A DNA stretch of 32,609 nucleotides from a virus: positions 1 through 32,609 of IMG/VR virus record IMGVR_UViG_3300032205_000012; one strand, written 5' to 3'. Under the pieces are notes generated by a model. That model saw nothing but the letters and a program-made list of their open reading frames with translations, ran no database searches and had not been told where the DNA came from. The position numbers and the translations under genes were made by a program. Positions 2,460-29,112 of this stretch are shown piece after piece (positions within the stretch are counted from its first letter, which is position 1; every line of letters begins with the position of its first letter).

Positions 2460-2720
2460 CTATCCTCCCGTCACGAGATTCCGGATCCAGCCGACCGCCG
2501 ACAGCAGCGAACCGGCCCCCATAAGCGACGCGCCGGACCAGCCGACGCCCGCGTCCTTCGGCCGACGCGCCGTCACGAAGCGCGTCGGATTCGACCGGGC
2601 CGCCCGGACGACCGCGGCGACGCCGATCCGGATCGCCTGCGGCTTCGTCAGACCGTCGTCGTGATGGAGATGGTAGGCGTACTCGGCCGCCACGTCGATC
2701 GCCGCGGACAGTCTGTTCAT
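2460..2720 (-). CDS. Small protein with an Asn-Pro motif and hydrophobic C-terminus
   Basis: An 86-residue protein. The N-terminal 40 residues look helical (AAIDVAAEYAYHLHH). Then comes RAARSNPTRF, an Asn-Pro motif in a basic context like those repeated in the proteins at 13470-14567 and 14572-17334. Residues about 64-78 (GASLMGAGSLLSAVG) could insert in a membrane. It begins 1 nt after the glycosyltransferase stop. Function unknown; a membrane-associated virion component is plausible. Confidence 0.55.
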   Translation of the reverse strand: MNRLSAAIDVAAEYAYHLHHDDGLTKPQAIRIGVAAVVRAARSNPTRFVTARRPKDAGVGWSGASLMGAGSLLSAVGWIRNLVTGG

Positions 2721-2721
2721 G

Positions 2722-4071
2722 CTACAGAATCAGACGGCGGGCCGACTCGGTCGGCGCCGTCCGCTCCTTCCTGGGTTTGTCCTTCGTGAGGTCGACGACG
2801 ACGTCGGACCACTGCCCGGCCTTGCTCAGACCCATGCAGCGGTTCCGCATGACCCAGTCGAGGCAGAGCCGCCCCATCGCGTCCCGCTCGTCGCGCGTCC
2901 GGTCGACCATCCGCCGGAGAGCCTCGGCCCAGCCGTCGTCCGGGACGATCTCGGCCGGGAAGCCCGCCTCGACCATCGACGGGTACTCGGCGGCCGGGGA
3001 GCACAGGACCGGGTACCCGGCGCTGGCGTACTCGAGTCCCTTCAGGCCGGACTTGCCGGAGTTGAACTCGTTGTTTTCGAGCGGGACGATCCCGAAGTCC
3101 GCCGAGATCTCGGCGAGCTCGTCGTGGTACTCCTCGAAGTCGACGGGCTTCTTCAGGTCGATCCACTTGTAGCAGTCCGCCAGGAGCTCCGGCAGGCGCT
3201 CGCCGAAGAGCGTGAAGCGGACCTTGCCGTCGCGTTCCTTCAGCAGGTCCCGGATCGCCGGGGCGACGATCGCGAGGTCCCGCTTGTGCGTCGCGGATCC
3301 GGCCCAGAGGATCCGGACGAAGGACGGGTCCGGCGGGTGGCGGCGCGGGGCGACGTTCGCCGTCACCATGTTCGGCAGGATCCGGACGGGCTTCCCGTAC
3401 TTCTGGGCGATGTGCCGGGCCAGGGGCTCGGTCGTCACCGTGACGAGGTCAGCGAGACCGATGATCTCGGCAATCTCGGCCTGCTTCCGTTCGGTCCCGT
3501 AGACGGTCTTCGCCTGATTCTCGTCGGGGATCGCGTCCAGGCGATCGTCGATGTCGTAGACGATCCGGACCCCCTCGGCCTTGACCTGCCGGACGATCTC
3601 GTTCAGGAGGCGCTCGGCGAGGAGCTGGATCCAGAGGACGTCGTACCGGAGGACCTTCGCGGGGTCGACCTTCGAGGTCCAGTTCGAGATGACCCGGCCG
3701 CCCTCGTTCATGATGTCGGCGGGGAGCATCGCGCGGTAGTAGGCCGCGGCGGTCACTCCGGCCGGGATGAAGAGGACGGAGGGGAGATTCGGCTTGTTGA
3801 AGACGTTCTCGAGGAAGGCGTCCTCGGCGGCGTGCCGGAGCTCCAGGACGTCGATGATCCCGTACAGCTTCCGACTGCCCCAGCGGATCGCGATCGTCTG
3901 GGCGACCTTGTGGGCCTCCTGGAAGATCTCCGCCGAGACCGTGATGGACCGGTTCTCGAAGGTGACGCGGACGCCGTCGTCAGACTGGGATGCCTGACCG
4001 CCTGACCAGAGTCGCACGGCGACCTCCGGCACGGTCCGGATCATGTCGATGAGCTGTGTCTTGGGTGGCAT
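2722..4071 (-). CDS. GT4-like glycosyltransferase
   Basis: A 449-residue protein with the GT-B fold layout of family GT4. The N-terminal Rossmann half includes RIVYDIDDRLD (about 169-179). The C-terminal half begins RILWAGSATHKRD (253-265) and has the donor-site region NSGKSGLKGLEYASAGYPVL (337-356), where GT4 enzymes bind the sugar nucleotide. GT4 enzymes move an activated sugar to an acceptor. The donor and acceptor here are unknown. Within a late structural operon it may glycosylate virion proteins or alter host surface glycans. The strong SD (AAGGAGAGAGGT) and the promoter at 4122-4150 suggest its own transcript start. Confidence 0.85.
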   Translation of the reverse strand: MPPKTQLIDMIRTVPEVAVRLWSGGQASQSDDGVRVTFENRSITVSAEIFQEAHKVAQTIAIRWGSRKLYGIIDVLELRHAAEDAFLENVFNKPNLPSVLFIPAGVTAAAYYRAMLPADIMNEGGRVISNWTSKVDPAKVLRYDVLWIQLLAERLLNEIVRQVKAEGVRIVYDIDDRLDAIPDENQAKTVYGTERKQAEIAEIIGLADLVTVTTEPLARHIAQKYGKPVRILPNMVTANVAPRRHPPDPSFVRILWAGSATHKRDLAIVAPAIRDLLKERDGKVRFTLFGERLPELLADCYKWIDLKKPVDFEEYHDELAEISADFGIVPLENNEFNSGKSGLKGLEYASAGYPVLCSPAAEYPSMVEAGFPAEIVPDDGWAEALRRMVDRTRDERDAMGRLCLDWVMRNRCMGLSKAGQWSDVVVDLTKDKPRKERTAPTESARRLIL

Positions 4072-4153: not shown

Positions 4154-4939
4154 CTACCAGAGGTGGGCGGCCTTCGCGACCGTCACGGTGCCCGCGGCGA
4201 CCCCCAGCCAGACGTACCAGGGGAGATCCAGCGAGAGCTTCGGCAGGCCGCCGGGTCGACCCATATCGGAGATCTGCTTGCCGAGGACCTTCTGGTAGGC
4301 GTTCGCAGCGAGCAGGTCGGTCGTGTTCTTCAGGTCGTCCCGGACGGCGATCAGGATCGCGTCGATCGGGTCGGTCCGGTTCCACTGGTACGGCGGGACG
4401 CCGCCGCGCACGGAGACGGCCCAGTCCGTCCAGTCATTGTAGAGACCCTCGACGGCGTTCCGGATCGACATCCGGCCCGCGTCGTCCTCGGTCGCGGCGA
4501 GCTGGGAGATCAGGGTCCGGTGGGCGTTCTGGAAGTCGTTGCCCTTCGACTGGACGTCCGCGAGCGTCGGCCCGGCGGTGGCGTCGTCGCCGAGGCCGGA
4601 GCGGTACCCCGTACCCACCCCGTGCTTCGACGCGGCGACGCTGTGCCTCGACACGACTCCGTGCTTGACGATCCGGTGCTTCGCGCGGGCGACGAGGACC
4701 CGGGCGCGTTCGGGGTGGACGCCCCGCCGGACCATCGACTTGACGAGGTCCGCCGACGGGTCGCCGAGTCCGGAGACCGGCCGCTCGTACGCCGGGGCGA
4801 CCTGCATGTACCCGGCCGCCCGGTTGTGGAACTGGTTCATGCCGTCGGGGATGAGCGTCGCCGTCGTGACGTACGTCACGGGACGCTTCAGGAGGACCCG
4901 CGTGGTTCCGTGGCCCCGGGGCCAGATTTTCGTCGTCAT
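4154..4939 (-). CDS. C-terminally membrane-anchored protein (261 aa), unknown
   Basis: The protein starts MTTKIWPRGHG. Residues about 60-115 are basic with several His (KHRIVKHGVVSRHSVAASKHG). The middle is helical with Trp-rich WTDWAVSV. The last 22 residues, PWYVWLGVAAGTVTVAKAAH and two more, form a single Gly/Ala-rich membrane segment with no sequence behind it. This tail-anchor layout is shared with the next two upstream proteins and with 17608-19233. I infer a protein fixed in a viral or host membrane with its bulk on one side. No family recognised. Confidence 0.65.
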   Translation of the reverse strand: MTTKIWPRGHGTTRVLLKRPVTYVTTATLIPDGMNQFHNRAAGYMQVAPAYERPVSGLGDPSADLVKSMVRRGVHPERARVLVARAKHRIVKHGVVSRHSVAASKHGVGTGYRSGLGDDATAGPTLADVQSKGNDFQNAHRTLISQLAATEDDAGRMSIRNAVEGLYNDWTDWAVSVRGGVPPYQWNRTDPIDAILIAVRDDLKNTTDLLAANAYQKVLGKQISDMGRPGGLPKLSLDLPWYVWLGVAAGTVTVAKAAHLW

Positions 4940-4951
4940 CGTTCAGTCCCT

Positions 4952-5581
4952 CTAGTTGTGCGAGAATGCGAAGATTCCGCCCACGACCGCCGCAGCCGCG
5001 CCGGTACCGAGCACCCACGCCGGGATCCCGGCGATTTTCGCCTGCGCGGCCTGACCAATTTCGGAGAGTGGTGCGTTAGTCGACGGATCGACCGGCTGGC
5101 CGGTCGCCGGATCCGCCTTCAGACCTTGTGCGGTCGCATTCTGGATCAGGGCGCTCTTCATGGCGATCGACTGGGAGTTCGCGACGATCTGGGCTTCCTG
5201 GAGCCGGATCTGCGCGAGCTGCTTCGCGGCAGTCGTCTGGATCTTCGCACCCCAGATCGCCCCGACGGCTCCGGCGAGCGCACCCGCCAGCGAGGAGATC
5301 CCGCCGATGTCCGACATGTCGACCGCGGACATACCGGCGGACCGCTGCGCCCGCCGGATCGCCCCGATGTCGACGACCGAGCGCGCGAAGGCCCGGACGT
5401 TCGGGAAGAGCGCCGGACCGGACTCGCCCCGCAGGCCGCGGGCGACGTCGCGATTGACGATCGCCGTGAACTGTCCCTTCGTCAGGCCGCCGCCCTGAAC
5501 CGCCGCGGCGACGGCGGGCTGCTTCAGGTCCTCGGCGAAGGCGGTCGCCAGGGCGTTCGCGTAGGCAGCGGTGCGGTCCAT
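4952..5581 (-). CDS. Small membrane protein with two hydrophobic segments (209 aa)
   Basis: The first 90 residues are helical and Ala-rich. Residues about 94-112 (GGISSLAGALAGAVGAIWG) form a glycine-zipper-like hydrophobic stretch. A helical linker rich in Gln and Ala follows. The C-terminus is a second membrane segment (IPAWVLGTGAAAAVVGGIFA and four more residues). It starts 3 nt after the stop of the next protein (5585-6670), which has a similar layout. Likely a membrane component of the particle or of genome delivery. No family recognised. Confidence 0.65.
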   Translation of the reverse strand: MDRTAAYANALATAFAEDLKQPAVAAAVQGGGLTKGQFTAIVNRDVARGLRGESGPALFPNVRAFARSVVDIGAIRRAQRSAGMSAVDMSDIGGISSLAGALAGAVGAIWGAKIQTTAAKQLAQIRLQEAQIVANSQSIAMKSALIQNATAQGLKADPATGQPVDPSTNAPLSEIGQAAQAKIAGIPAWVLGTGAAAAVVGGIFAFSHN

Positions 5582-5584
5582 CGA

Positions 5585-6670
5585 CTACCTGCCCTTCTTT
5601 CCGGATGCAGCGACAACGACGGCACCACCAGCCAGGAGCATCCAGAAGAGACCGGATCCACCGCTTGCCGGAGCAGGAGCCGGAGCGGGAGGTACGGTAG
5701 CCGCCGAGCCGGTCGTGTCGGGGGCTGCCCCCGGAACCGGAACCGGCGCGGACGAGGACGAAGTGTCGGGAGGAGATGGAGGTGCGTAATCCCCTCCGGG
5801 CGCGGGGTTTCCTCCGTAGGCCGTACCGCCCGCGACGATCCCGGACGGTCCGGCCGCCTGTTCGGCGGCAGCGAACGCTGCCTGCGTCGCGGTTCCGACG
5901 ACCTGCTGCTGTGCGGCGACGGCCTCCGGGGTCGGCTGGAGAGTCCCGGCAGAGGCACGCTCGATCAGGTCGACCTTCTGGTCGAGCGTCAGGGAGTTCC
6001 ACCTCGCCTGATCGTACCCGGCAGCCAGGAAGATCTCGGTGTTCTGGGCGTAGACGCCGTCGGCCTGTGACATGACCTGCGCGTTCTGTCGGTTTACTTC
6101 CCCCTGCATGACGGCGGCCTCGGCCTTACCGGCACGCTTCGCCTTGTCGGCGTCGATCTTCATCGCCCGGAGCTTGTAGGCCGTCGTCAGGACCGCCGCG
6201 GCGGCCAGCGAGGCGCCGCCCGTGAACGGTGAGAGCACGGCGCCCGCAACCGTGATGATGATCGGCGCGAACTTCCGGGCGACGTTCATGACCTTCTTCA
6301 GGGTCGGCTTCAGCACCTTGTAGATCGGATCGTGCTGGGCGATCTTGCTCGTGACCCTCCGGGCGGCATTGAAGACCCTCCGGTTGATCTTGACGAGCTT
6401 CTTGAAGAAGCTCTTGCCCATCCCGGCGTCGGAGAGTCCGGCGTAGTGGTGCGCCGTGGCTTCCAGAGTCGCCTGCTGGATGTTCTCGGTGATCGCATCG
6501 GCGAGGGCTCGCTCGGGGTCCCGCTGCTGAAGGATCCAGCGGATCGTGTCGTGCGAGCCCGGCTCCTGGAGCTCCTCGACAATGACCTGAAGCGACGGGC
6601 GCGAGAGTCTCCGCATCGCGGAGATCTCCGGTGCGCCGAGTCCGGCTCCAGGGGGAATGTAGACCCTCAT
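5585..6670 (-). CDS. Membrane-associated structural protein (361 aa)
   Basis: Residues about 88-135 are basic and helical (FFKKLVKINRRVF, KPTLKKVMNVARKF). They lead into a hydrophobic Gly/Ala stretch at 135-165 (PIIITVAGAVLSPFTGGASL) of the kind seen in internal virion or membrane-penetration proteins. A helical, Gln/Ala-rich region follows, then a Pro/Ser-rich flexible linker at about 270-338 that includes GGNPAPGG. The last 20 residues are a membrane segment (LFWMLLAGGAVVVAAS) ending in GKKGR. I infer an internal or membrane virion protein. The exact role is unknown. Confidence 0.65.
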   Translation of the reverse strand: MRVYIPPGAGLGAPEISAMRRLSRPSLQVIVEELQEPGSHDTIRWILQQRDPERALADAITENIQQATLEATAHHYAGLSDAGMGKSFFKKLVKINRRVFNAARRVTSKIAQHDPIYKVLKPTLKKVMNVARKFAPIIITVAGAVLSPFTGGASLAAAAVLTTAYKLRAMKIDADKAKRAGKAEAAVMQGEVNRQNAQVMSQADGVYAQNTEIFLAAGYDQARWNSLTLDQKVDLIERASAGTLQPTPEAVAAQQQVVGTATQAAFAAAEQAAGPSGIVAGGTAYGGNPAPGGDYAPPSPPDTSSSSAPVPVPGAAPDTTGSAATVPPAPAPAPASGGSGLFWMLLAGGAVVVAASGKKGR

Positions 6671-13469: not shown

Positions 13470-14567
13470 CTAGAACCGCTCGGGCATCCCCCGACGCGAG
13501 AACTCGTCGTCGCTGTCGTGGCCGACCCCGGCGTTCGCCATCTCGGTGTTCCGCTCCGTCAGGTAGGCGGACATCCCGGCGTTGGCGCGCTCGGTGTTGA
13601 CCTGGGTCAGGTACGCCTCCGAGCCCGCGGCCCGGAGGTACTCGATCCCGGCGGGCTTGAGGTACGTCGAGTACCCCTCGGATCCGGCCGCGGCCACGTA
13701 GCCGCTGTGACCGCCCCGGAGCTCCTTCAGGACCTCGGACTCGATCGCCCGACGGAACTCGTCCGTCTCGGCGCCCGACAGGGTCGGGACGAATTGGGCG
13801 AACTGGGTTCCGGAGATCGCCTCGGAGACTCCCTGCCAGAGGGTCGCGAAGAGGCCGCCGGTCAGGACCCGTGCGGTCAGCTTCGAGTTCTTGAGCACGC
13901 TGGAGAGGCCGGTCAGGGCGAGCGTCGACAGGAACGTCGAGCCGACCTTCGTGACCGCGGCGCCGAGCGTGATGGGCATCCAGGGCTGCGTGTAGAGCAG
14001 CTTGCCCAACCAGAGCGAGCCGCCGAAGCCGACGCCCATGTGGGCGAGGGTCTCGAGCGTGTCGACCGAGAAGGCCGACATGATCGCGTTCTTGATCGCG
14101 CCGATCGGATCGGACGCGAGGCGGTAGGACGCCGCCGGGTTCCGGTAGACGCGCCGCGAACGGCGGCCGGAGCTACGACGACGACGACTCCGGCGCGGGT
14201 TCGACACGACCACCGGGTTGCGGTGGACGCGCCGACGGCTCCGGCGGTAGCGCTTCGGGAACTTGAAGCCGCGGATCTGGCCGCGACGCTTGCCGCGCTT
14301 CCGGCGCGTGGCGAACTTCGTGATCTTCCTCCAGCGGCGGCCGGTCTTGATGTAGCCGCTGGGGTTCCGGTGCCGACGCCGCCGGGTCGTGCGGGACCGC
14401 TTGACGAAATGCCCCTTGGCATTCCGCAGAGTGCGCCGCCTGCCCCGACGGCGCGTACGGGAGCGTGCCATGACTTTCTCCTTGCCCGTCGTGCGGGCGG
14501 TTCTGGAACGACGCCTCCGGGTGGCGACAGGCCGCCCGGGGTTTGCGAACACAAGTGCTCCGATCAT
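13470..14567 (-). CDS. Arg-rich nucleic-acid-binding protein with membrane-like core and Asn-Pro motifs
   Basis: A 365-residue protein. Residues 10-145 are extremely basic (runs such as TRRRGRRRT, SRRRRSSGRRSRR) and carry five Asn-Pro motifs: FANP (8-10), RNPS (67-70), RNPV (117-120), SNPR (122-125), RNPA (142-145). Residues about 165-250 are hydrophobic and Gly-rich (HMGVGFGGSLWLGKLL, ITLGAAVTKVGSTF, LTGGLFATLWQGV). The C-terminus has imperfect repeats (AAGSEGYST/AAGSEAYLT; ERANAG/EMANAG). I infer a genome-condensing protein that also contacts a membrane or shell. The ATG at 14567 has GAGGG upstream and adds an Asn-Pro motif. A second start at 14471 (MARSRT) has AAGGAG, so both forms may be made. 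Confidence 0.65.
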   Translation of the reverse strand: MIGALVFANPGRPVATRRRRSRTARTTGKEKVMARSRTRRRGRRRTLRNAKGHFVKRSRTTRRRRHRNPSGYIKTGRRWRKITKFATRRKRGKRRGQIRGFKFPKRYRRSRRRVHRNPVVVSNPRRSRRRRSSGRRSRRVYRNPAASYRLASDPIGAIKNAIMSAFSVDTLETLAHMGVGFGGSLWLGKLLYTQPWMPITLGAAVTKVGSTFLSTLALTGLSSVLKNSKLTARVLTGGLFATLWQGVSEAISGTQFAQFVPTLSGAETDEFRRAIESEVLKELRGGHSGYVAAAGSEGYSTYLKPAGIEYLRAAGSEAYLTQVNTERANAGMSAYLTERNTEMANAGVGHDSDDEFSRRGMPERF

Positions 14568-14571
14568 TTCT

Positions 14572-17334
14572 CTACCCTCGCATCCAGTCGCCGACCTTCT
14601 GGCCGGGGCCCATGACCTTGACGATCATCTTGCCACTCGGGGAAGCGAGCACGGGGACCGGTCTCGACCGGCCGGAGCCGTCGCCCCACTTGTGGCGGTA
14701 CATGTGCGTGCCCTTCTTCGAGCCCTTCGGCGGACGATACATGTCCTCCGGCGAGTCCCCGTAGTGCGTCAGGGCGACGACCGAGTCGATCTTGTCCTTC
14801 GAGCCCATCGGGAGGTGCTTCCAGGTCACGGACTTCGCGTGGGAGTTCGCCTTCGTCTGGAGCTTCGCCGCCGCCTGACATTCCTTGATGAGGGCGCGGT
14901 CGCCGATCCGGCGCGCGAGCGCCATCGCCTGCGCGACGGTCATCTTCGTGCCGGGCGCCGGAAGACGCAGGCCGCCGGGGTTCGAGATCGTCGTTCTCGC
15001 CACCTTCCGAGCTTTGTCGGAGATTCGGTCCGCGGCGCGACGGGCGACTTTCGGCCCGTACTGACGAACGACCTTCGCTTTCCCAAAGGCCATCCCGGCG
15101 CGGGACGAACGAGTGTGTCCACCCTGGAAAGTCGATCCGTGACGGACATCGAAGCGTGCGTCGCGGAGAACCTGCCCGGCCTCGCGGCGTGTCAGCGGAT
15201 TCACTGCACCGACCGGCGCCAGCCGCCGGACCGTCGTGCCGCCGGACGGGCGACGCGAGGTGTCGAGCCAGCCGCCCTCGAGCGCACGCTTCGCCGACGG
15301 CGGAAGCGTCGACCAGGAGCGACGGGCCTGCATGTGGGCGAGGTCCTCCGGAACTCCCGCGAACATGAGCGTCTTCGCTTTCACGCGAGGCTGCATCGAG
15401 TCCCACTGCGCCGAGATCGGCGGATTCGCCGCGAAGACGGTCTGGAGCAGCGGATTCGGAAGCGGGTCGCCCTTCTTCCAGTCGTCCGCCATGTAGTGCG
15501 GTTCGGCGTGGTGATGCCGGAGACTGAGACGCCCGTCCTTCGTGACGTGGAAGGCGTGCTCGCGGAGCCACTGGGCGTCGGAGATCAGCGGGATTCTCGG
15601 GGGCTTTACGCCGCCCGTTGCGTACCAGGACCGAGCGCGCCCCTCGTTCTCCTTCGTCCAACGATACCCGAACGAATTGAGAATCTCCCGCTGGAGGTTG
15701 TACGGGAGCTTGTCGCCGCGGACGATCGGGTTCGCGCAGACGGGAGGATTCCGGAGCACGCGATCGAGCGTCGTGTGCATCGCGACCCAGGTCCGCCGGG
15801 CGGCCTTCGGTCCGGTCTCCTGAACGGCGAAGCCGATTCCGCGGGCCCGGCCGGTGTGGTACTTCTGCTCTCCGACGAGACCGTGCCGACGGGCGGACCC
15901 CGCCTCGCGGACATCGGCGCGGGCGTGCCGCAGCAGGTACCCGGCCTCGGAGCGCGTCAACGGGTTCTTCATGGGATAGCCATGCTTCCGCACGTAATCG
16001 ACGGCTCTCTTGAGGATGTCGGGACGTGCCAGAGTCAGGACTTCGCCATCTCTGGCCTGTGCCCAGATGAAGGCGTCCCGGAGCATCCGCGCGACGCGCT
16101 CCTCGTGGCCGCTCGGAACCTTGTAGGCACGGACCGACTTCGAGGGGGGATTCGTCCGCGCCGACCGACCCTTGCCGAACGCGGCGATGAACGCCATCGC
16201 GTCCTTCCGGCCGAGCGCCGTGTAGACGCCGTCGCCCTGGTGATAGTCGCCGTACGAGCTCTTCCCGGACTTCAGGAAGAAGCGGTAGCGCGTGACGCCG
16301 TCACCGGGCGCCCACGTTCCGATGACCAGACCGACCGCGGCGGCGGCCTGCTCCATCGCGTTCAGCTTCCGAGGTCCGTTGTTGAAGAGGAAGATGTTCT
16401 TCCGGACACTTCTCGGATTCGAGACCGGGCCGATCAGGCGGTCGTAGTTCCCGAGCTCGGCCTCGTTCTCGAAGGAGTCCCGGAAGGCGCGAGCCGCCAG
16501 GAGCCGCGTGTTCTTGTTGAACATCGCGTCGATTTTCTGACCCGCCGTCCCGAACTCGCGGACGTACTTCTTCGCGCCTGCGTCCATCAGGTACATGAAG
16601 AGCTTGACCGCCAGCTCGCGGTCGTAGACGCCCTTCCGACGCTTCAGCATCAGGTTCTTCACGATCGGGATGAACTGCTGGAAATAGAGGTTCCGATCGT
16701 TGTCGATATAGAGCTCGAGCTCGTGCGCCGCGGTCTCGTCGGCCGGACCGGATGGCGAGTTGTTGAAGACGAAGATGTTCTTCCGGACGGAAGCAGGATT
16801 CTTCTGCACGAGCTCCATTGACTTCGCCATCTGGATCACCGTCTGGACGCGAGGATCGTGGTAGTCCATCGGACCGAACTTCTGTCGAAGCGCGTCAATC
16901 ACAAGCCGAGTCCCGGTCTGGATGGAAATCCATCCGGGGAGAGCGGAGAGCTTGGTCGGAGCGAGGCGGATCTTGTAGATCCTGTTGAGAGCGATCAACA
17001 GGTACATGCCCCAGACCATATTCGGAGCGCCTGATGGAGGATTCCGGAACTTCATCGAGCGGACGCTCTTCCGGCCGAACGAATTCTTGAGCTCGCGGTA
17101 CATCATCGTCGCGATCTCGCCCTCGTCCTTGACGGACCGATGCGACGGGCCCGGACGGAATTGAGACTTCGAGAGAATTCCGTAGAGCGCATCGCCCTGT
17201 CCGGCATAGTTGTCGGAGGCGTACCAGTAGATCGCCGCCTCCATATCGAATTCGGACTCTCTCAGGTCAAGGAGACCACCGAATGCCTCCTCGAGACGAG
17301 CGAGCATCCGGCGCTTCAGGGTGTCGGCGTCCAT
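14572..17334 (-). CDS. Large modular protein with about a dozen Asn-Pro motifs; possible polyprotein (920 aa)
   Basis: The start MDADTLKRRM at 17334 overlaps the upstream stop by one base (TGATG). Asn-Pro motifs recur at about residues 98, 179, 306, 395, 457, 529, 535, 627, 637, 712 and 785, mostly preceded by Arg, Lys, Ser, Thr or Ala. They cut the chain into modules of roughly 60-130 residues. Two modules are internal duplicates: SVRKNIFVFNN (182-192) with SVRKNIFLFNN (309-319), and NPLTRSEAGYLLRHARADVR (457-476) with NPLTRREAGQVLRDARFDVR (712-731). Many modules are basic. The order of motif, module, motif suggests either proteolytic processing into several virion proteins or a docking peptide repeated along a scaffold. 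No enzyme domain recognised. Confidence 0.65.
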   Translation of the reverse strand: MDADTLKRRMLARLEEAFGGLLDLRESEFDMEAAIYWYASDNYAGQGDALYGILSKSQFRPGPSHRSVKDEGEIATMMYRELKNSFGRKSVRSMKFRNPPSGAPNMVWGMYLLIALNRIYKIRLAPTKLSALPGWISIQTGTRLVIDALRQKFGPMDYHDPRVQTVIQMAKSMELVQKNPASVRKNIFVFNNSPSGPADETAAHELELYIDNDRNLYFQQFIPIVKNLMLKRRKGVYDRELAVKLFMYLMDAGAKKYVREFGTAGQKIDAMFNKNTRLLAARAFRDSFENEAELGNYDRLIGPVSNPRSVRKNIFLFNNGPRKLNAMEQAAAAVGLVIGTWAPGDGVTRYRFFLKSGKSSYGDYHQGDGVYTALGRKDAMAFIAAFGKGRSARTNPPSKSVRAYKVPSGHEERVARMLRDAFIWAQARDGEVLTLARPDILKRAVDYVRKHGYPMKNPLTRSEAGYLLRHARADVREAGSARRHGLVGEQKYHTGRARGIGFAVQETGPKAARRTWVAMHTTLDRVLRNPPVCANPIVRGDKLPYNLQREILNSFGYRWTKENEGRARSWYATGGVKPPRIPLISDAQWLREHAFHVTKDGRLSLRHHHAEPHYMADDWKKGDPLPNPLLQTVFAANPPISAQWDSMQPRVKAKTLMFAGVPEDLAHMQARRSWSTLPPSAKRALEGGWLDTSRRPSGGTTVRRLAPVGAVNPLTRREAGQVLRDARFDVRHGSTFQGGHTRSSRAGMAFGKAKVVRQYGPKVARRAADRISDKARKVARTTISNPGGLRLPAPGTKMTVAQAMALARRIGDRALIKECQAAAKLQTKANSHAKSVTWKHLPMGSKDKIDSVVALTHYGDSPEDMYRPPKGSKKGTHMYRHKWGDGSGRSRPVPVLASPSGKMIVKVMGPGQKVGDWMRG

Positions 17335-17603
17335 CACGCAACCCTCCGACGGCGGCCGATCGCAACGTGCGGGACGGGGTTCCGGCGGACGCCGGAGGAG
17401 CGCTGGGCGCGGTGGCCGAACCACGTCCCGATGAAGGCCGCGGCGACGGCGCCCGTCACCATGAAGACGCCCAGCATCGGCAGGACGTCGTTGACCATGA
17501 TGTCCTTGATCGCGGGCGTGAGCGAGGCGATCGCCGCGTCGGTGATCGACGAGGTCACGTCGCCCATTCCCGGTCTCCGGACGTAGGTCACGTACTGGCG
17601 CAT
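17334..17603 (-). CDS. Small single-TM protein with a basic Asn-Pro tail (89 aa)
   Basis: Residues about 41-63 (LPMLGVFMVTGAVAAAFIGT and the next three) form one membrane segment. The tail HRAQRSSGVRRNPVPH ends in GRRRRVA, so it is basic and carries the Asn-Pro motif of its neighbours. The ATG at 17603 lies 4 nt after the upstream stop but lacks a clear SD. The internal ATG at 17567 (MGDVTSS) has GGAG 7 nt upstream and may be the true start, giving 77 residues. The stop overlaps the 920-aa gene by one base. I infer a virion membrane protein whose basic tail faces the nucleic acid. Confidence 0.6.
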   Translation of the reverse strand: MRQYVTYVRRPGMGDVTSSITDAAIASLTPAIKDIMVNDVLPMLGVFMVTGAVAAAFIGTWFGHRAQRSSGVRRNPVPHVAIGRRRRVA

Positions 17604-17607
17604 TCGA

Positions 17608-19233
17608 CTACCGGCGGCGCCTCCCGGAGGAGCCCGGACGGGACTTGAAGGCGACGTAGAGTCCGCCGCCGAGGACCAGGGCCCCGGCACCCAGAACGAA
17701 GGGATTGAAGTACCAGGGCGTCGTGACGGTCGCGCCCATGACGTTCCTTCCGGCGACCTTGTTCGTCGCGTTGATGACGGCCTGCGCCACCTTCGACTGC
17801 ATGACGGACGGGATGACCGAGCCGACGGACTTGAAGACCGAGCCGACCGCGTCCCAGACGGATCCGCCCGCGGTCGCCGCCGCCTTCGTCGCGGGCGTCG
17901 CCGCCGCGACCGGCGTCGGCTTGACGGTGACGGCCCCGGCGGATCCGGACGGAGCGTTCGGGTTGTAGCCGGGGACCGACGTGACGATCTGGGTGTCCGG
18001 GACCGTCGGGGGCTCCGAGAAGGAGGTGATGATCCCGCCGGAGTTGTCGGCGGCCTGCGGGGGATCCGGCATGTCCTCGTCGCCCATATTCATGCCGTCC
18101 ATCGCGCCGAACGGAATGCGCCGGGGCGTCATCGCGACGGACCTCCGGACCAGCATCGGCTGACCCATCTTGACCTCCACCTGTCTCTCGGGTGATTCTG
18201 CACTCTTGACTTTCACGTACTGGCCCGTCTTGACGAAACGGACCGCGTCGTGCCCGATCGCGCCGTTCCAGCGCGAGCCGGGCGGGTAGGGCATCGTCTC
18301 GGTCTTGAAGTACGGCTGGGGACCGGCGCCGCGGTAGTAGGGGTTCCCGTGGTCGTCCGGGTAGCCGTCGATCGACTGGATCCGCTCGGCGGGGTCCAGG
18401 GTCGGGGCGGCCTTCAGGAGGTGCATGTCCGGCTCGAGGTCCGCCGAGGGGATCTGCGTGTCGTGGGGGACGAGGAGCTGGAGGTCGTCGAAGTTCCCCG
18501 GGGGGATCACGCCGGGTCCGTAGCCGAAGTCCTTCGGGACCCCGTAGCCGATGTAGTCCTGCGCGTACGCGGCGTCGACGTCGGCCAGCGGCGAGACGCC
18601 GCGGTCGCCGTTGTCGCCCAGGAGGCCGCCGCTGGACATCGTCTTCATGTCGGATCTCCCCACGATGTTCTCGATCGGCTTCTCCGGCCAGCGGGCGAAG
18701 AGCTTCGCGTCGACCGGCGGACGCCAGCCGGGGTACGCCCCGCCCGTCGAGGAGTCCAGCGCGTGCCACTCGTCCCCGACCAGGAGGGCCGCCCAGACGT
18801 GGGAGAACTCGTCCGGCCGGGCCGGATCGACCTTCGCGGTCTCGAAGGCGTACTGGAATCCCAGGATCCCGCCCAGCGTCGAGGTGACGATCGTGAAGGT
18901 GTCGCAGTCGCCGACGAAGAGTCCGGGGCCCCTGTAGGTCCCCGCCTTCCGGGCCTCGATGATCGGCCGCATCGCCTCGATCGGGTGCTCGATCTTCTCG
19001 ATCTGGAAGGGGTCCCGCTGGAAGATGCCGTGCTTCTGGACCCAGTTGAAGATCGCGTCGGCGGTCTCCTTCGTCGAGCCGCGCCGGTCCGTCGGCACCG
19101 AGGCGCGGATCCAGGTCGCGATCTTCTGGAAGGTCGGGTCGAGCTTGCCGAGGGCGACCAGCTTGTGCATCTTCTCGATTGTCGCGGCGGTCCCGGTGAC
19201 GCCGCGTTCGAGACCCTCGACGGTCGTGCTCAC
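17608..19233 (-). CDS. Transglutaminase/papain-fold protein with a C-terminal membrane anchor (541 aa)
   Basis: The start is GTG at 19233, with a weak GGGGGT SD. The N-terminal domain (about 30-180) matches the transglutaminase-like superfamily. Candidate catalytic residues are Cys110 in VGDCDTFT, His145 in SHVWAALLV and Asp160 in WHALDSSTGG. The fold covers cross-linkers, amidases and cysteine peptidases. A central unknown region and a Pro/Ala/Thr-rich linker (about 400-460) follow. The C-terminus has WYFNPFVLGAGALVLGGGLY, one membrane anchor, then a basic end (GSSGRRRR). It stands just upstream of the Asn-Pro modular protein, so a processing peptidase or a virion peptidoglycan/cross-linking enzyme are both open. 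Confidence 0.75.
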   Translation of the reverse strand: MSTTVEGLERGVTGTAATIEKMHKLVALGKLDPTFQKIATWIRASVPTDRRGSTKETADAIFNWVQKHGIFQRDPFQIEKIEHPIEAMRPIIEARKAGTYRGPGLFVGDCDTFTIVTSTLGGILGFQYAFETAKVDPARPDEFSHVWAALLVGDEWHALDSSTGGAYPGWRPPVDAKLFARWPEKPIENIVGRSDMKTMSSGGLLGDNGDRGVSPLADVDAAYAQDYIGYGVPKDFGYGPGVIPPGNFDDLQLLVPHDTQIPSADLEPDMHLLKAAPTLDPAERIQSIDGYPDDHGNPYYRGAGPQPYFKTETMPYPPGSRWNGAIGHDAVRFVKTGQYVKVKSAESPERQVEVKMGQPMLVRRSVAMTPRRIPFGAMDGMNMGDEDMPDPPQAADNSGGIITSFSEPPTVPDTQIVTSVPGYNPNAPSGSAGAVTVKPTPVAAATPATKAAATAGGSVWDAVGSVFKSVGSVIPSVMQSKVAQAVINATNKVAGRNVMGATVTTPWYFNPFVLGAGALVLGGGLYVAFKSRPGSSGRRRR

Positions 19234-20047: not shown

Positions 20048-20596
20048 TCAGGCGACGATCGGCGCGACCTCGATCTCCGCGAGGTCGACCGATCCGGTCG
20101 AGGCGGTCTTCCGGGCCTTCAGGAAGACCCCGGGGGATCCGGGGTCCGTGTCCGGCACAAGCTCGAGGATCTGCATGTCGGCGAAGATCTTCCGGAAGTC
20201 CTCGACTGTGTAGCGCCAGTAGTCGTGCGGGAAGCCGTGGTACGGGAAGCCCGGCCCGCGGGTCGTGACGACCAGGAGTCCGCCGGGCCGCAGGACGGCC
20301 TTCATCTGCGCGACGGCGCCCCGCCAGTCCTGCGCGTGCTCCAGCATCTCGGTCGAGACGACGACGCCGAAGCAGTCCAGGCCGAAGTACGTCGTCAGGT
20401 CCTTGACGTCCATGACGATGTCGACGCTCCTCGCGTGGACGAAGTCGACGCCGACGTACCTCTTTGGACCGTGCGGGACGAGGACCTCCCGCGGCGAGCC
20501 GTTGACGTCCTGCGAGCCGACCTCGAGCAGCTCGAGGCCGCGGATCTCGTCCGGCGCGATGCGCTCCCGGAGGAATTGCATAACGCTTCCGTGCAT
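20048..20596 (-). CDS. Class I SAM-dependent methyltransferase-like protein (182 aa)
   Basis: Motif I is LEVGSQDVNGS (24-34), the SAM-binding glycine loop in altered form. YVGVDFV (47-53) is the acidic motif II region. FGVVVSTEMLEH (76-87) is the motif IV/V region typical of Methyltransf_11, and LRPGGLLVVTT (102-112) the following strand. HDYWRYT (124-130) recurs in methyltransferases found in sugar-biosynthesis clusters. The ATG at 20596 has AGGAG upstream. It probably methylates a small molecule, sugar or protein. With the glycosyltransferase at 2722-4071 it may modify surface glycans. The substrate is unknown. Confidence 0.8.
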   Translation of the reverse strand: MHGSVMQFLRERIAPDEIRGLELLEVGSQDVNGSPREVLVPHGPKRYVGVDFVHARSVDIVMDVKDLTTYFGLDCFGVVVSTEMLEHAQDWRGAVAQMKAVLRPGGLLVVTTRGPGFPYHGFPHDYWRYTVEDFRKIFADMQILELVPDTDPGSPGVFLKARKTASTGSVDLAEIEVAPIVA

Positions 20597-24041: not shown

Positions 24042-25856
24042 GTGGTCACGAAGCCCAGCGTACCCGCCGCGCCGGTCAAAAGAGAATTGTCCCCCTGGAC
24101 CTTCACGGCCGAGCAGCTCCTCGCGGAGTTCACGCCCGGCAAGACCCCCCGCCCGCAGCAGATTCACTTCCTGGAGCGTGCCGCCGACGCCTACCGGCGC
24201 GGGAAGCGCGTCGTGGTCGGCGAGCTGCCGACCGGCGCCGGGAAGACCGACGCCTGCAAGACCCTGGCGAACGCCCTGCGGTCGGCGGGCAAGGGGACCT
24301 TCATGCTGACCTCCCAGAAGATCCTCCAGGACCAGTACGCGACCGACTACCCCTCCCCGGACATCGAGACGATCAAGGGCCGGGCGAACTACCCATGCAC
24401 GCACCCGGACGCCCACCCGGACGGTCAGAACGCCGCCGACGGTGTCTGCCGCCGGAAGTCGAAGGGCATCCTGTCGGCCTGCATCGACGCTGACATCGCC
24501 GGGCCGATTGCCCGCGCCGCTGATCTGACCGTCATGCAGGCTGCGGTCGCTCTCGCGCTGCCGCATACCTGTCACGCCTGTCCGTACTGGGCCCAGCTCC
24601 AGCGGACGCACGACGCCCCGATCGCGCTCTTCAACTTCTCCAGCTTCCTCTTCCAGCAGCGGATCGGCCGCTTCGCCCCCCGGGCCCTCATGATCGTCGA
24701 CGAGGCGCACAACACCGAGAGTCAGCTCATGAACTTCGTGACTCTCGAACTCTCGGAGTGGACGCTGTCCCTGGTCAACGTCCGGATCACCCGGGACATC
24801 CGGACGAAGGCGGAGTTCCTGGACTGGCTGGCCGAGACCGATCTGCTCCAGCTCGTCTCCCGGAAGCTGAAGGCCGCCGAGAGCGACCGCTCCGAGGAGG
24901 AGGAGATGGACGAGGACGACCTGGAGGCCGAGCTCTCCGCGGCCGAGCTGGACGCCCTGAAGGAGCTCGACGGGAAGCTGGCGAACTTCCTGACCTTCCT
25001 GGAGAAGACCGAGTGGATCCTGGAGGTCGCGAAGTACAACGACAAGCGCACGGGCGAGGAGCGCCGGAAGATCGTCGCGCGGCCCCTGTACGCGAAGGAC
25101 TTCGCGCAGGACCTCCTCTTCCGGCACGCCGAGCGCCTCTGCTTCATGTCGGCGACGATCCTGGACGTCGAGGTCTGGGCCCGGAACCTCGGCCTCTCGA
25201 TGGACGAGGTCGAGTTGATCCGGACCCCCTGCGACTTCCCGGTCGAGAACCGCCTGATCTGGAAGGAGTACTGCGGGAACTTCGGCTTCAAGTTCTTCTC
25301 CCGCGAGCAGAACCCGAAGGACCCCACCGAGCCGAAGTTCGTCCGGAAGGTCGACGAGATCCTGACCCGGCACGCCGGACAGCGCGGCATCATCCACTGC
25401 CACTCCTTCAGTCTGGCGAAGGTCCTCTTCAACGGCATCGACGGGAGGAACGGCGACCGCCTGCTCTTCCAGGAACACTTCGAGAACAAGGACGAGATGC
25501 TCCAGGAGCACGCCCGCCGGACGGACTCCGTCATCGTCGCCCCCGCCATGCACGAGGGGCTCGACCTGAAGGGCGACCTCTCACGCTTCCAGGTAATCGC
25601 GAAGATGCCCTGGCCGAACATGCAGGACCGGGTCATCAAGCAGCGGATGGACCGCGACGCTGCGTGGTACTCCTGGCTCTGCGCTCTCAAGATCGTCCAG
25701 TCCTACGGCCGGTCGGTCCGCTCCCGGGACGACTGGGCGACGACGTACCTGCTCGACGCGGGCTTCGAGTCCTTCCTCTGGCGCTCGGCGAAGATGCTGC
25801 CGGACTGGTTCCACGAGGCCCTCCGGCGCGGCGCCCCGAAGGAGGTGCGGCGGTGA
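24042..25856 (+). CDS. XPD/DinG-type superfamily 2 DNA helicase (604 aa)
   Basis: The start is GTG at 24042 with GGAGGAA before it. Walker A is ELPTGAGKTD (61-70) and the DEAH box VDEAHN (219-224). Between them lie Cys119, Cys136, Cys147, Cys177 and Cys180 (YPCTHP, GVCRRK, CHACPYW), the pattern of the 4Fe-4S domain in XPD/DinG helicases. Motif VI is QSYGRSVRSRDDW (about 548-560). These enzymes unwind DNA in the 5'-3' direction with ATP. In phage modules they accompany RecA-like and primase genes and serve replication or recombination. An acidic loop (EEEEMDEDDLEAE) around 285-300 is unusual. Confidence 0.88.
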   Translation: MVTKPSVPAAPVKRELSPWTFTAEQLLAEFTPGKTPRPQQIHFLERAADAYRRGKRVVVGELPTGAGKTDACKTLANALRSAGKGTFMLTSQKILQDQYATDYPSPDIETIKGRANYPCTHPDAHPDGQNAADGVCRRKSKGILSACIDADIAGPIARAADLTVMQAAVALALPHTCHACPYWAQLQRTHDAPIALFNFSSFLFQQRIGRFAPRALMIVDEAHNTESQLMNFVTLELSEWTLSLVNVRITRDIRTKAEFLDWLAETDLLQLVSRKLKAAESDRSEEEEMDEDDLEAELSAAELDALKELDGKLANFLTFLEKTEWILEVAKYNDKRTGEERRKIVARPLYAKDFAQDLLFRHAERLCFMSATILDVEVWARNLGLSMDEVELIRTPCDFPVENRLIWKEYCGNFGFKFFSREQNPKDPTEPKFVRKVDEILTRHAGQRGIIHCHSFSLAKVLFNGIDGRNGDRLLFQEHFENKDEMLQEHARRTDSVIVAPAMHEGLDLKGDLSRFQVIAKMPWPNMQDRVIKQRMDRDAAWYSWLCALKIVQSYGRSVRSRDDWATTYLLDAGFESFLWRSAKMLPDWFHEALRRGAPKEVRR

Positions 25857-26155
25857 GCCGCCGCATCGAAGTCCGGGAGGAGCGGAAGGACCGGTACTGC
25901 GTTCTCCGGATCGACCCGGCATTCGATCCGGAGAACAAGAAGCGCGGATTTCAGCCGCGCATCACGGCCTACGCCGAGATGGATTTCTCGTTCGAGAGCG
26001 ACGACTACCACTGGAAACGGGCAGAAGTCTCCTGGTACTCGTGCGGCGGCGTCGAGCCGGAGATGGCTGGAGACTTCGGTCAGGCGATCCTGACGGCCAC
26101 CGAGTACGCGAAGAAGATCAACGCCGAGCACGGCTTCGTGGAGCTGAAATGCTGA
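25853..26155 (+). CDS. Small unknown protein coupled to the helicase (100 aa)
   Basis: GTG at 25853 overlaps the helicase stop by 4 nt (GTGA) and has GGAGG 7 nt upstream, so it is probably translated with the helicase. It looks like an alpha/beta fold: KDRYCVLRIDPAFD, RITAYAEMDFSFES, WYSCGGVEPEMAGDF, then a helix ILTATEYAKKINAEH. No catalytic motif recognised. A helicase partner or DNA-metabolism accessory is plausible from position only. Confidence 0.65.
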   Translation: MSRRIEVREERKDRYCVLRIDPAFDPENKKRGFQPRITAYAEMDFSFESDDYHWKRAEVSWYSCGGVEPEMAGDFGQAILTATEYAKKINAEHGFVELKC

Positions 26156-26370
26156 CCGTGACGATCGTCATGTGCGGCTGGTGCCGGAGCCCGAGGCCCC
26201 TGGAGGTCCAGGGGATCGACGATCTCCCGCCCGGCGCGCACCCCGCGAAGGTCAGCATCTCGCACGGGATCTGTATCCCCTGCGGGACGAAGTTCTCCGA
26301 CATGATCGAGAAGGGAGGTGCGACCCCGGATGGCACGTCAGTAAGGGACAATGCGACCAGGGAGAAGTAG
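26149..26370 (+). CDS. Small zinc-ribbon-like protein (73 aa)
   Basis: Two CxxC pairs, MCGWC (8-12) and ICIPC (41-45), make a typical four-Cys zinc ribbon. The ATG overlaps the preceding stop by 7 nt. The chain between the pairs is short and polar (EVQGIDDLPPGAHPAK). Such proteins in phage replication modules may bind DNA or RNA or act as small regulators. The specific role here is unknown. Confidence 0.6.
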   Translation: MLTVTIVMCGWCRSPRPLEVQGIDDLPPGAHPAKVSISHGICIPCGTKFSDMIEKGGATPDGTSVRDNATREK

Positions 26371-26416
26371 GGCTGTCGGTTGGTTAGTGGGGAAAGAAGA
26401 AGAAGGAGGAACAGCA

Positions 26417-27676
26417 GTGGCATCGCAGATCAGGGATCCCTTCGAGGATCCCGTCAAGCACAAGAAGTTCCTGAAGGTGGCCGTCTTCGGGAAGGGCGGC
26501 ACCGGGAAGACCCGATTCGCGCTCTCCTTCCCGAACCCCTGCGTGATCGACACCGAGAAGGGGACCGATCCCTACAAGGGGATCTACACCTTCAAGGTGA
26601 AGTTCGCGAACCGCTGGCGCCAGCTCGAGTCGATCCTGCACTTCTGCCGGACCCAGACGACCTACGAGACCCTCATCATCGACTCCGCGACGGTCTTCTA
26701 TGCTGATCTGATCCAGGAGATCGTCGACTACATCAAGAACAAGCGCGGCAACGAGACGATGACGAAGGGCGACTGGGGGATCGAGAAGCGCCGCTGGGCG
26801 GCCTTCCTGAACAATCTCGTCGAGCTCCAGATGCACGTCGTCCTGTGCTTCCGGGAGAAGGACGAGTACGAGGAGACGACGAACCGTGCCGGGGAGGAGA
26901 CCCTGAAGAAGACCGGGAACTTCTTCCCGGAGGCCGACAAGGTCACGGAGTACCTCTTCGATCTGGCCTTCCGCTGCTACACCGAGGAGAACAAGAAGGA
27001 GAAGAGCTCGAAGTTCCTGATTACCTGCACGAAGACCCGCTACAACGAGTGGATGCCGAAGTACTCCGTCCACGACGTCACGCGGAAGCGCGCCTTCGAC
27101 ACGCTCTTCGCCCCGCACGTCGTCGAGATGCTGGACGCCCCGGCCGCGCCACAGGCCGACCCGGAGCCGATCCTGATCGTCCCGGACGGCACGGTGCCGC
27201 CGAAGGAGACCGTCGAGGCGGCGCCGCCCGGGGCCACTGCGGATCCCGAGCCGCTGCCCGAGTCCGTCCAGGAGAACATCGACGACATCGTCAAGACCTT
27301 CGGCGTCACGAAGCCCCTGCCGGACCAGCCGGAGGCGACTCTCGAGGACATCAAGGTCCTCATGACCCGCTCCGGCGAGATGCGCTGGCCGGACGATGCG
27401 AAGAAGTGCCGGAAGCAGAGCTGCTCGGCGAACGGCCACATCCACCCGTACTTCAAGGGCGCCGAGGCGAAGTCCATGATCCGCTCGCTGTACGGCGTCG
27501 AGTCGTCGAAGGAACTCCGGAAGCCCCAGGTGGAGTTCCTTCACGAGGAATTCGGAAAGGTGCTCGCGGGCCGGGCCTTCCTCGACCGGGACGGTCAGGG
27601 GACGGTCTACATCGCGACACCGTCGGGGGCAACCGAGGAGGAGGTGCGGGCGAACGTCCTGCTGTACACGAAGTAG
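26417..27676 (+). CDS. RecA-like ATPase, Sak4/AAA_24 type (419 aa)
   Basis: The start is GTG at 26417 with GGAGG 7 nt before it. Walker A is VFGKGGTGKTRF (23-34) and Walker B TLIIDSATVF (85-94). The following KGDWGIEKRRW and VVLCFREKDEY match the AAA_24/Sak4 family of phage RecA-like annealing or recombinase proteins. The C-terminal part (from about 240) is a Pro/Ala linker and a unique domain with CRKQSCSANGHIHPYF, possibly metal-binding. Sak4-type proteins work with an SSB in phage recombination and replication. The next gene is SSB-like, which fits. A terminase or packaging ATPase is less likely. Confidence 0.8.
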   Translation: MASQIRDPFEDPVKHKKFLKVAVFGKGGTGKTRFALSFPNPCVIDTEKGTDPYKGIYTFKVKFANRWRQLESILHFCRTQTTYETLIIDSATVFYADLIQEIVDYIKNKRGNETMTKGDWGIEKRRWAAFLNNLVELQMHVVLCFREKDEYEETTNRAGEETLKKTGNFFPEADKVTEYLFDLAFRCYTEENKKEKSSKFLITCTKTRYNEWMPKYSVHDVTRKRAFDTLFAPHVVEMLDAPAAPQADPEPILIVPDGTVPPKETVEAAPPGATADPEPLPESVQENIDDIVKTFGVTKPLPDQPEATLEDIKVLMTRSGEMRWPDDAKKCRKQSCSANGHIHPYFKGAEAKSMIRSLYGVESSKELRKPQVEFLHEEFGKVLAGRAFLDRDGQGTVYIATPSGATEEEVRANVLLYTK

Positions 27677-27757
27677 CTGATCTTCGACCGGGGTAACTGG
27701 CTCTGGACGAGGGGAACTGACGTGGTTGATTTTGGAAAAAGGATGAAGGAGAAGAAT

Positions 27758-28423
27758 ATGACGAATCCTGTGAATCCGTTCGCCGACTTCGAGGACGACT
27801 ACAAGAAGGCGCAGAAGGCTGAGAACACGACGCCCGGTCGCGTCCCGCCGGAGACCTACAAGTTCGTCCTCTGCGCGCAGGAGGTCCCGCCGAACTCCGG
27901 CACGATGGCCGACTTCGAGGTCTTGGTCGGCAAGAACACCGGCACGAAGGGCTTCAAGCTATTCTGCGAGATCCTGGAGCCCGAGTCCGTCCCGAATCCC
28001 AAGACGAAGGAGCCGCACGTCACGAAGGGCGCGGTCCTCGATCACGTCTTCTGGGTGACGGCCAAGAACCTCCCCTACATCAAGCGAGACGTCGCGACGA
28101 TCACCGGCCGGGACGTCGAGACGATGGGCGAGCTCCTGAAGATCGCGTGGGCCGGACGGACTTTCGAGGGCGTCGTCCGGGACGAGGAGTACAACGGCCG
28201 GATCTCCAGCCGCATCGCCTTCATCAACCCCTGGTCGCCGAAGGCTGAAGCGGGGGCGAACCCCGACGGTGTCGCCACCAGCTCGAAGGACGCCGCGAAG
28301 CCGGACCCGAAGGCCGAGACGAAGAAGGCCGCCACGCAGCAGGCCCCGGCGAAGGGGACGACGGCCCCGGCGAAGGACACGAAGCAGCCCGCGAAGACGG
28401 GGGGCGTCGACAACTCCTGGTAA
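27758..28423 (+). CDS. DUF669-like ssDNA-binding protein (221 aa)
   Basis: The ATG at 27758 has GGAG 6 nt upstream and was preferred over a GTG at 27722. Residues 1-160 are a beta-rich domain (PPETYKFVLCAQEVPPNSG, KGFKLFCEILEPES, GRISSRIAFINPWSP). Residues 160-221 are a low-complexity Ala/Lys/Pro tail ending in GGVDNSW. A beta domain with a flexible C-terminal tail next to a Sak4 gene is the usual layout of DUF669 phage proteins, which are thought to bind single-stranded DNA. The tail could recruit other replication proteins. Domain identity is moderate. Confidence 0.65.
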   Translation: MTNPVNPFADFEDDYKKAQKAENTTPGRVPPETYKFVLCAQEVPPNSGTMADFEVLVGKNTGTKGFKLFCEILEPESVPNPKTKEPHVTKGAVLDHVFWVTAKNLPYIKRDVATITGRDVETMGELLKIAWAGRTFEGVVRDEEYNGRISSRIAFINPWSPKAEAGANPDGVATSSKDAAKPDPKAETKKAATQQAPAKGTTAPAKDTKQPAKTGGVDNSW

Positions 28424-28435
28424 CTGGTTCCTCCC

Positions 28436-28464
28436 GAGAGAAGGGTTCGTGACCCCCTTCTCTC
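28436..28464 (+). terminator. Terminator-like hairpin after the ssDNA-binding gene
   Basis: GAGAGAAGGG (28436-28445) and CCCTTCTCTC (28455-28464) form a perfect 10-bp stem with a 9-nt loop, 13 nt past the stop of 27758-28423. Only TCTATG follows, so the U-tract is poor and termination may be partial. It stands just before the AT-rich HNH insert. Confidence 0.5.
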
Positions 28465-28469
28465 TCTAT

Positions 28470-28506
28470 GAGGTGCATTCTCTTCCTCCAATAGGGAATG
28501 CACCTC
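28470..28506 (+). other. Hairpin upstream of the HNH gene
   Basis: GAGGTGCATTC (28470-28480) and GAATGCACCTC (28496-28506) form a perfect 11-bp stem with a 15-nt loop that itself has CCT/AGG pairing. It ends 14 nt before the HNH start and just ahead of its SD (GGGAG). It may tune translation of the endonuclease or mark an insertion border. Confidence 0.5.
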
Positions 28507-28520
28507 GACAGGGAGAGAAA

Positions 28521-29054: not shown

Positions 29055-29112
29055 TTCAAAGAGAACAAAGTGGGCAACGGGTTCGGGGGACGGTAGCTAG
29101 AGAGAGGGTCCG

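Follow-up and report, generated by a model that had tools for sequence, protein, structure and literature searches.

Origin of the question

The window, which is the whole stretch of DNA analysed and corresponds to a virus record of 32.6 kb, encodes a long modular protein in which the dipeptide Asn-Pro (NP) recurs at intervals. An earlier note, made from the sequence alone, had suggested that these motifs divide the protein into modules and serve either as processing sites of a polyprotein or as docking peptides for a capsid or membrane partner. The question raised by this locus is therefore what the repeated NP is for, and whether the same arrangement is found in other viruses.

Asn-Pro sites and gene context

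The protein contains exactly 11 NP dipeptides (the earlier note had counted about eleven), compared to a shuffle expectation of 2.27 (sd 1.42), and none of 20,000 shuffles reached 11; NP is also conserved in homologues, so that both properties which the note had proposed to check have been found. As it had also remarked, the preceding residues (R, K, S, T, K, R, A, P, A, V and S) are mostly basic or small. NP has been lost at certain junctions, where NNSP and NNGP stand in the window protein and VRPT in one relative (G006). The coordinates of all features are listed in Table 1.

The ATG of the modular gene is preceded by a Shine-Dalgarno-like GGAGGG and overlaps the stop codon of the gene for a small transmembrane (TM) protein in the sequence TGATG, and the gene for a basic protein starts 4 nt past the modular-gene stop, with GAGGG inside the coding end of the modular gene. 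Because of this overlap, the 4-nt gap and the position of GAGGG, translation of the TM, modular and basic genes seems to be coupled. If the modular protein is read from GTG instead of ATG, its ORF extends to 17424 (950 aa). A plus-strand ORF of 810 aa (14389-16821) across the modular gene was taken as a high-GC shadow frame, as the conserved protein homologues correspond to the minus-strand frame.

No credible Pfam match was detected in the window protein and its seven homologues, tblastn of the modular, transglutaminase-like (TG-like) and capsid proteins of the window against 50,697 phages gave no matches, and two scans of genome contigs found no provirus. The AlphaFold model of the modular protein (pLDDT 44), as well as that of the 318-aa capsid candidate (pLDDT 49), was too poor for fold assignment, and for this reason the view that NP links folded modules is based on coil assignment and on the mosaic structure of the proteins.

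Table 1. Features of the window that bear on the Asn-Pro motif
Feature	Position	Strand	Remarks
Small protein with RSNPTRF	2460..2720	-	motif in 3/4 homologues
Putative capsid protein, 250 aa	10833..11585	-	conserved in 8/8
Putative major capsid protein, 318 aa	11575..12531	-	relatives 72-80% identical; low-confidence, largely beta model
Putative capsid protein, 224 aa	12652..13326	-	conserved in 8/8
Basic protein, 365 aa	13470..14567	-	basic N-terminal tail with 5 NP (VHRNPVVVSNP doublet); hydrophobic C-terminal domain
Asn-Pro-punctuated modular protein, 920 aa	14572..17334	-	ATG at 17334; homologues in 7 related viruses
C-terminal module, HYGDSPE..MYRHKW	14575..14982	-	last module in 8/8 genomes
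Asn-Pro 11, ISNPGG, residue 785	14977..14982	-	invariant C-terminal module begins
Asn-Pro 10, AVNPLT, residue 712	15196..15201	-	second NPLTR-type module begins; paralogous to module 15751-15966
Asn-Pro 9, AANPPI, residue 637	15421..15426	-	
Asn-Pro 8, LPNPLLQT, residue 627	15451..15456	-	conserved doublet NPLLQTVFAANP begins
Asn-Pro 7, CANPIV, residue 535	15727..15732	-	
Asn-Pro 6, LRNPPV, residue 529	15745..15750	-	
Asn-Pro 5, MKNPLT, residue 457	15961..15966	-	first NPLTR-type module begins
Asn-Pro 4, RTNPPS, residue 395	16147..16152	-	
Linker VRKNIFLFNN, second copy	16378..16407	-	
Asn-Pro 3, VSNPRS, residue 306	16414..16419	-	
Linker VRKNIFVFNN	16759..16788	-	97% identical to second copy over 30 nt; repeated in relatives
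Asn-Pro 2, QKNPAS, residue 179	16795..16800	-	followed by linker VRKNIFVFNN
Asn-Pro 1, FRNPPS, residue 98	17038..17043	-	coordinates derived from residue numbers
Small single-TM protein	17334..17603	-	C-terminal tail ..GVRRNPVPHVAIGRRRRVA; [V/I]-R-x-N-P in 7/7 homologues
TG-like protein, 541 aa (C110, H145, D160)	17608..19233	-	TM segment and basic tail at the C-terminus; homologue of SSIP-1 gp34

Mosaic structure of the modular proteins

Scans of viral contigs yielded seven metagenomic relatives of 22-73 kb, in all of which the modular gene is located immediately ahead of the basic gene. Their modular proteins have 459-1213 aa and 9-16 NP, the lowest count belonging to a contig that ends within the gene. 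Among all 400 dipeptides, NP is the most enriched in the eight modular proteins (102 occurrences vs 17.3 expected, z = 20.2), and the next dipeptide reaches z = 7.5. Splitting the proteins at NP produces mostly segments of 50-140 aa, many of which cluster as families. The order of these modules is mosaic, with variable upstream modules and a conserved C-terminal run that closes every protein; for example, three genomes have a module marked by AIYWFANDY at the N-terminus and a fourth has it at an internal position flanked by NP on each side, and the NPLTR-type module is present in two copies in every genome.

The ends of local homology (HSPs) lie at a median distance of 3.5 residues from NP (23 for random positions), and 74% of homology breakpoints are found within 10 residues of NP compared to 25% of random ones, a value reached in none of 500 simulations. 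Since homology starts and stops at NP, the modular proteins are best described as mosaics of swappable 50-140-aa modules. In one pair of genomes (G005 and G006), neighbouring modules are 96%, 78% and 40% identical. As judged from these alignments, modules are shown to be exchanged between viruses at NP linkers, and the proposal that NP delimits modules is well founded: at NP junctions, modules have been acquired, lost, duplicated or moved among the relatives, as well as in a second virus group.

The linkers are conserved across 10-14 residues, one of them, VRKNIF[T/V/L]FNN[P], recurs among the window and its relatives, and one NP doublet keeps its exact spacing in 8/8 genomes. Conservation is 0.80-0.89 for most linkers vs 0.65-0.76 for the bodies of modules 1b, 2 and the second NPLTR-type module, the exceptions being linker 781-788 (0.69) and the C-terminal module (0.80, equal to the linkers). 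The near-identity of the two VRKNIF(V/L)FNN copies in DNA makes recombination at linkers likely, and NP might then be a passive spacer, inherited and homogenised by recombination without a partner, that only terminates a helix or forms a turn between domains; proline-containing turns are indeed ordinary domain boundaries. We consider this explanation improbable, given that conservation is higher in most linkers than in the bodies of most modules, that the motif with V/I at -3 is also conserved in unrelated basic and TM proteins, and that strong NP enrichment is almost confined to the families described in the next section.

Motif consensus and its spread among neighbouring proteins

The motif can be written as [V/I/T]-x-x-N-P. 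One of these three residues occupies position -3 at 44 of 94 sites in modular proteins (p 3e-13) and at 25 of 41 sites in basic proteins (p 6e-11), with a background of approximately 0.15; both p values are nominal because the site contexts are related and non-independent. The earlier note had assigned Asn-Pro to three further proteins of the window. This is correct for the basic protein, whose family contains 49 NP vs 4.7 expected and keeps the doublet NPVVV[S/A]NP in 8/8, and for the TM protein, whose single NP is conserved in all seven homologues within the tail pattern [V/I]-R-[RKSQ]-N-P. It holds in part for the small protein, which has one NP that is lost in one of four homologues.

In a survey of 77 gene families found in at least three of the genomes, strong NP enrichment was restricted to the modular family (102 vs 18.7 expected), the basic family and one replication-side family (28 vs 5.1 expected). 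The window member of the latter (27722-28423, plus strand) has NP conserved in all relatives (NPF.DF, VPNPKTGEP and FINPW) without the basic or valine context. NP by itself is therefore not diagnostic, and the enrichment in this unrelated protein has another cause.

Other virus groups carrying the motif

A DNA pattern for NP-R-R-N-P arrays was used to find further groups. It led to an unrelated group of 16-19 kb (referred to here as the 17-kb group) that has a GPA-type rolling-circle replication protein and the gene order coiled-coil, TG-like, TM, NP modular, DUF6321-NP, basic NP with hydrophobic domain, and capsid-like genes. Its modular protein contains 8 NP vs 1.1 expected, and within the group the last module has been replaced directly after NP and another has been inserted between two NPATG copies. 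The contigs (L052, L055-L057 and L185) look like an undescribed group of tailless phages. An SLT lysozyme and a holin-like membrane protein are also encoded in this group.

A third virus, G008 (L181-L184), has a genome of 78.8 kb with a terminal repeat. Its basic protein (31470-32957, minus strand) contains RGRPRK AT-hook-like repeats followed by an RYRRNP array and a hydrophobic domain, and the gene adjoins many small proteins ending in a TM segment and a basic tail. A looser version of the DNA pattern mostly detected chance matches or noncoding repeats, together with one real new group; among the former is a 36-nt-spaced array in L128 (504-1770), where a regular RNP-encoding pattern runs across several ORFs and looks like a CRISPR-like noncoding repeat array and not a protein feature.

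Arrays such as RRNPRR suggest that Asn-Pro might form an Asx-Pro turn that holds packaged DNA, like SPKK of sperm histones. The net charge of the modular proteins (+6 to +11 per 100 aa) would fit, as would the position of the RYRRNP array in the 78.8-kb virus after AT-hook-like segments. In the modular proteins the residue after NP is usually L, P or G instead of K/R, and the contexts of the TM tail and of the doublets are hydrophobic, which makes a DNA-binding turn very unlikely.

The basic proteins of the 17-kb group and the 78.8-kb virus are at best possible homologues of the window basic family; that of the 17-kb group matches it with an E-value of 0.0025 and high composition bias. For the C-terminal modules of the two groups, an HMM search was negative and a profile-profile comparison gave an E-value of 0.0025, above 60 column shuffles at a probability of only 12, which is suggestive only. 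Homology of the C-terminal module to the C-terminus of SSIP-1 gp43 was rejected, the score being no better than that of shuffles. A search for NP arrays in FLiP, PM2 and SSIP-1 found none comparable.

Relationship to SSIP-1 and polyvalent proteins

The phage SSIP-1 contains a membrane and has two major capsid proteins, with a virion architecture of the PRD1-adenovirus type (PMC6356626). It resembles the window family in a similar order of coiled-coil, TG-like, TM, modular, hydrophobic-domain and structural genes, in a homologous TG-like protein with C-terminal TM segment (gp34, E 1.6e-6 with the window-family profile), and in the motifs MRENP, VRENP, FARENP and VVHENP of its annotated structural proteins gp41, gp43 and gp44. 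These motifs are placed near the N-terminus, before a C-terminal TM segment, before a C-terminal domain and before a hydrophobic domain. It differs in that NP is sparse (1-2 per motif-bearing protein, 3 in gp43) and that its capsid proteins have no detectable sequence similarity to those of the window family.

The gp43 of SSIP-1 (L059, 26863-33822; 2319 aa, annotated structural) has N6-methyltransferase-like and ParB_N domains and is a protein of the polyvalent type as described in PMC5512222, not merely a DNA methyltransferase. Polyvalent proteins of phages and conjugative elements are long, multi-module proteins with shuffled domains that are predicted to travel with the DNA, and some are predicted to be processed (Iyer et al. 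2017, PMC5512222). The window protein lies ahead of basic and capsid genes much as gp43 lies upstream of gp44 and structural genes, but, along with its seven homologues, it differs from polyvalent proteins in having no recognisable enzymatic or Pfam domain; in addition, its modules are small with a uniform Asn-Pro linker, and the candidate peptidase is a separate gene instead of an embedded domain. From the position and annotation of gp43, the window protein may likewise be packaged in the particle and enter the host along with the DNA.

Capsid candidates and the rest of the genome

No terminase or tail genes were recognised among the window proteins scanned. The capsid assignments are putative and low-confidence, being based on conservation, gene order and a largely beta model of the 318-aa protein. 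When that poor model was compared by Foldseek with regard to single- or double-jelly-roll capsid folds, the matches were weak; they included proteins of STIV, PM2 and PRD1, with a best E-value of 2e-3 and a TM-score of approximately 0.2. An internal membrane is probably present, as suggested by the proteins with C-terminal TM segments and by the link to SSIP-1.

Several proteins encoded at 4154-6670 and 17608-19233 (both minus strand) terminate with a hydrophobic stretch and a short, mostly basic tail, as in tail-anchored virion membrane proteins, and proteins with such ends are also present in G008, L185 and SSIP-1. A glycosyltransferase gene (2722-4071, minus strand; phrog_7162, E 1.9e-39) lies inside the structural region, and a methyltransferase is encoded at 20048-20596. 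The divergent replication block (24042-31521, plus strand) contains a DEAD_2-type helicase, an AAA_24 ATPase (26351-27676) and a D5-like primase-helicase. One relative (G006, L026) has a tyrosine recombinase, putative by eye, at 49620-50405, suggesting that some relatives may integrate.

Transglutaminase-like protein and possible cleavage at Asn-Pro

The earlier note had pointed to a neighbouring 541-aa protein with Cys110, His145 and Asp160 as a possible peptidase; this triad is present and is invariant in seven aligned homologues. The window TG-like protein alone scores 13.1 bits against PF01841, below the cut-off of 23, and is linked to it via its family profile, whereas the 17-kb-group homologue (53.2 bits) and SSIP-1 gp34 (29.6 bits) exceed the cut-off. 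The window-family profile also matches the 17-kb group (E 4.8e-9), and a combined profile matches the 78.8-kb virus at 43 bits (best of 1000 shuffles, 6.1), so that a homologue is found in all four motif-bearing groups (window family, 17-kb group, 78.8-kb virus and SSIP-1). Among 50,697 phage records, the 17-kb-group protein matches only two SSIP-1 records, in which gp34 is annotated as structural. Since this homologue in an isolated phage is annotated as a structural protein, a peptidase within the particle is plausible.

The modular protein may be a polyprotein in which [V/I/T]-x-x-N-P is a maturation site for the upstream TG-like cysteine peptidase, which would free the modules and trim the basic and membrane proteins in the manner of the adenovirus protease. 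The presence of NP at module/module and soluble/membrane boundaries, the concentration of homology ends close to these recurrent short sites at domain junctions, the invariant C-H-D triad of a virus-encoded candidate and its occurrence in all motif-carrying groups are consistent with such processing, and a hydrophobic residue at -3 with an invariant NP resembles P3 or P4 plus P1-P1' specificity. Several observations argue against it. Cysteine peptidases rarely have proline at P1' or P2' of their sites; the sequence between NP doublets 5-11 residues apart is conserved, which free fragments would not need; some NP lie very close to N-termini; TG-like proteins need not be peptidases; and the TG-like gene belongs to the core genes, so that finding it together with NP counts for little. 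Cleavage is the main alternative, a possibility that we take seriously but do not prefer.

A precedent for site-specific cleavage by this fold is LapG, a TG-fold cysteine peptidase that cuts the large protein LapA (PMC3032545). The window TG-like protein shares with LapG and other BTLCPs a transglutaminase-like fold with a C-H-D triad; the cleavage site differs, and PF06035 (Peptidase_C93) was matched only below threshold by the 17-kb-group homologue (14.7 bits vs a cut-off of 27, E 0.026) and not by window-family members. Two other mechanisms, 2A-type ribosome skipping (D-x-E-x-N-P-G-P) and FlhB/YscU autoproteolysis, were rejected, as NPGP and NPTH each have 0 occurrences in the eight modular proteins.

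Adenovirus encodes a cysteine peptidase as well as a basic core protein and an internal protein with short consensus sites in several copies. The window virus likewise pairs a basic protein, short repeated sites and a candidate cysteine peptidase gene, but the peptidase fold and the consensus are different, and cleavage in the window virus is only hypothetical. It is somewhat doubtful that membrane-containing bacterial viruses use the TG-like virion protein as a maturation peptidase that cuts [V/I/T]-x-x-Asn-Pro and would represent a bacterial counterpart of the adenovirus protease.

Asn-Pro as a proposed docking peptide

With a probability of about 0.4, we favour the reading that the phage is a tailless relative of SSIP-1, probably with an internal membrane, and that the NP protein lies inside its virion as a modular cargo or core component docked through NP. 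The protein would consist of 50-140-aa modules connected through conserved [V/I/T]-x-x-Asn-Pro linkers, with a net basic charge over its whole length, and the motif would act as a short peptide recognised by a single shared partner in the virion, either a capsid or a membrane protein. Any module or tail bearing the motif would thus be docked and packaged, many copies would provide multivalent attachment, and recombination at near-identical linkers would allow payload modules to be swapped without loss of docking. We infer the virion location from homology and gene order, and likewise the existence of a common reader.

Docking or sorting is slightly favoured over cleavage, and a docking peptide is supported at least as much as a cleavage site, because the linkers and the sequences between doublets are conserved, with fixed doublet spacing, and because NP is found 5-9 residues from N-termini (MSVRKNPPSF and MIGALVFANP), where cleavage would gain little. 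In addition, the independent 17-kb group has NP modular, basic NP and capsid-like genes in the same order. Counted against docking are one virus of that group (G009), which shows no V preference at -3, and the junctions without NP.

Implications

Because it is found again in further groups of viruses, the NP arrangement looks like a real, undescribed assembly or processing code in membrane-containing phages. It can be read from sequence, marks modular and basic-tail proteins across virus groups that differ in genome size and replication genes, and ties these groups to one isolated phage, SSIP-1. Should the motif serve for docking, the swapping of modules would explain how such viruses exchange internal cargo. 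To our knowledge, no maturation peptidase has been described for bacterial relatives of adenovirus-type capsids, and a cleavage function of the motif would provide one. Either way, the motif may serve as an annotation marker for under-recognised tailless phages in metagenomes.
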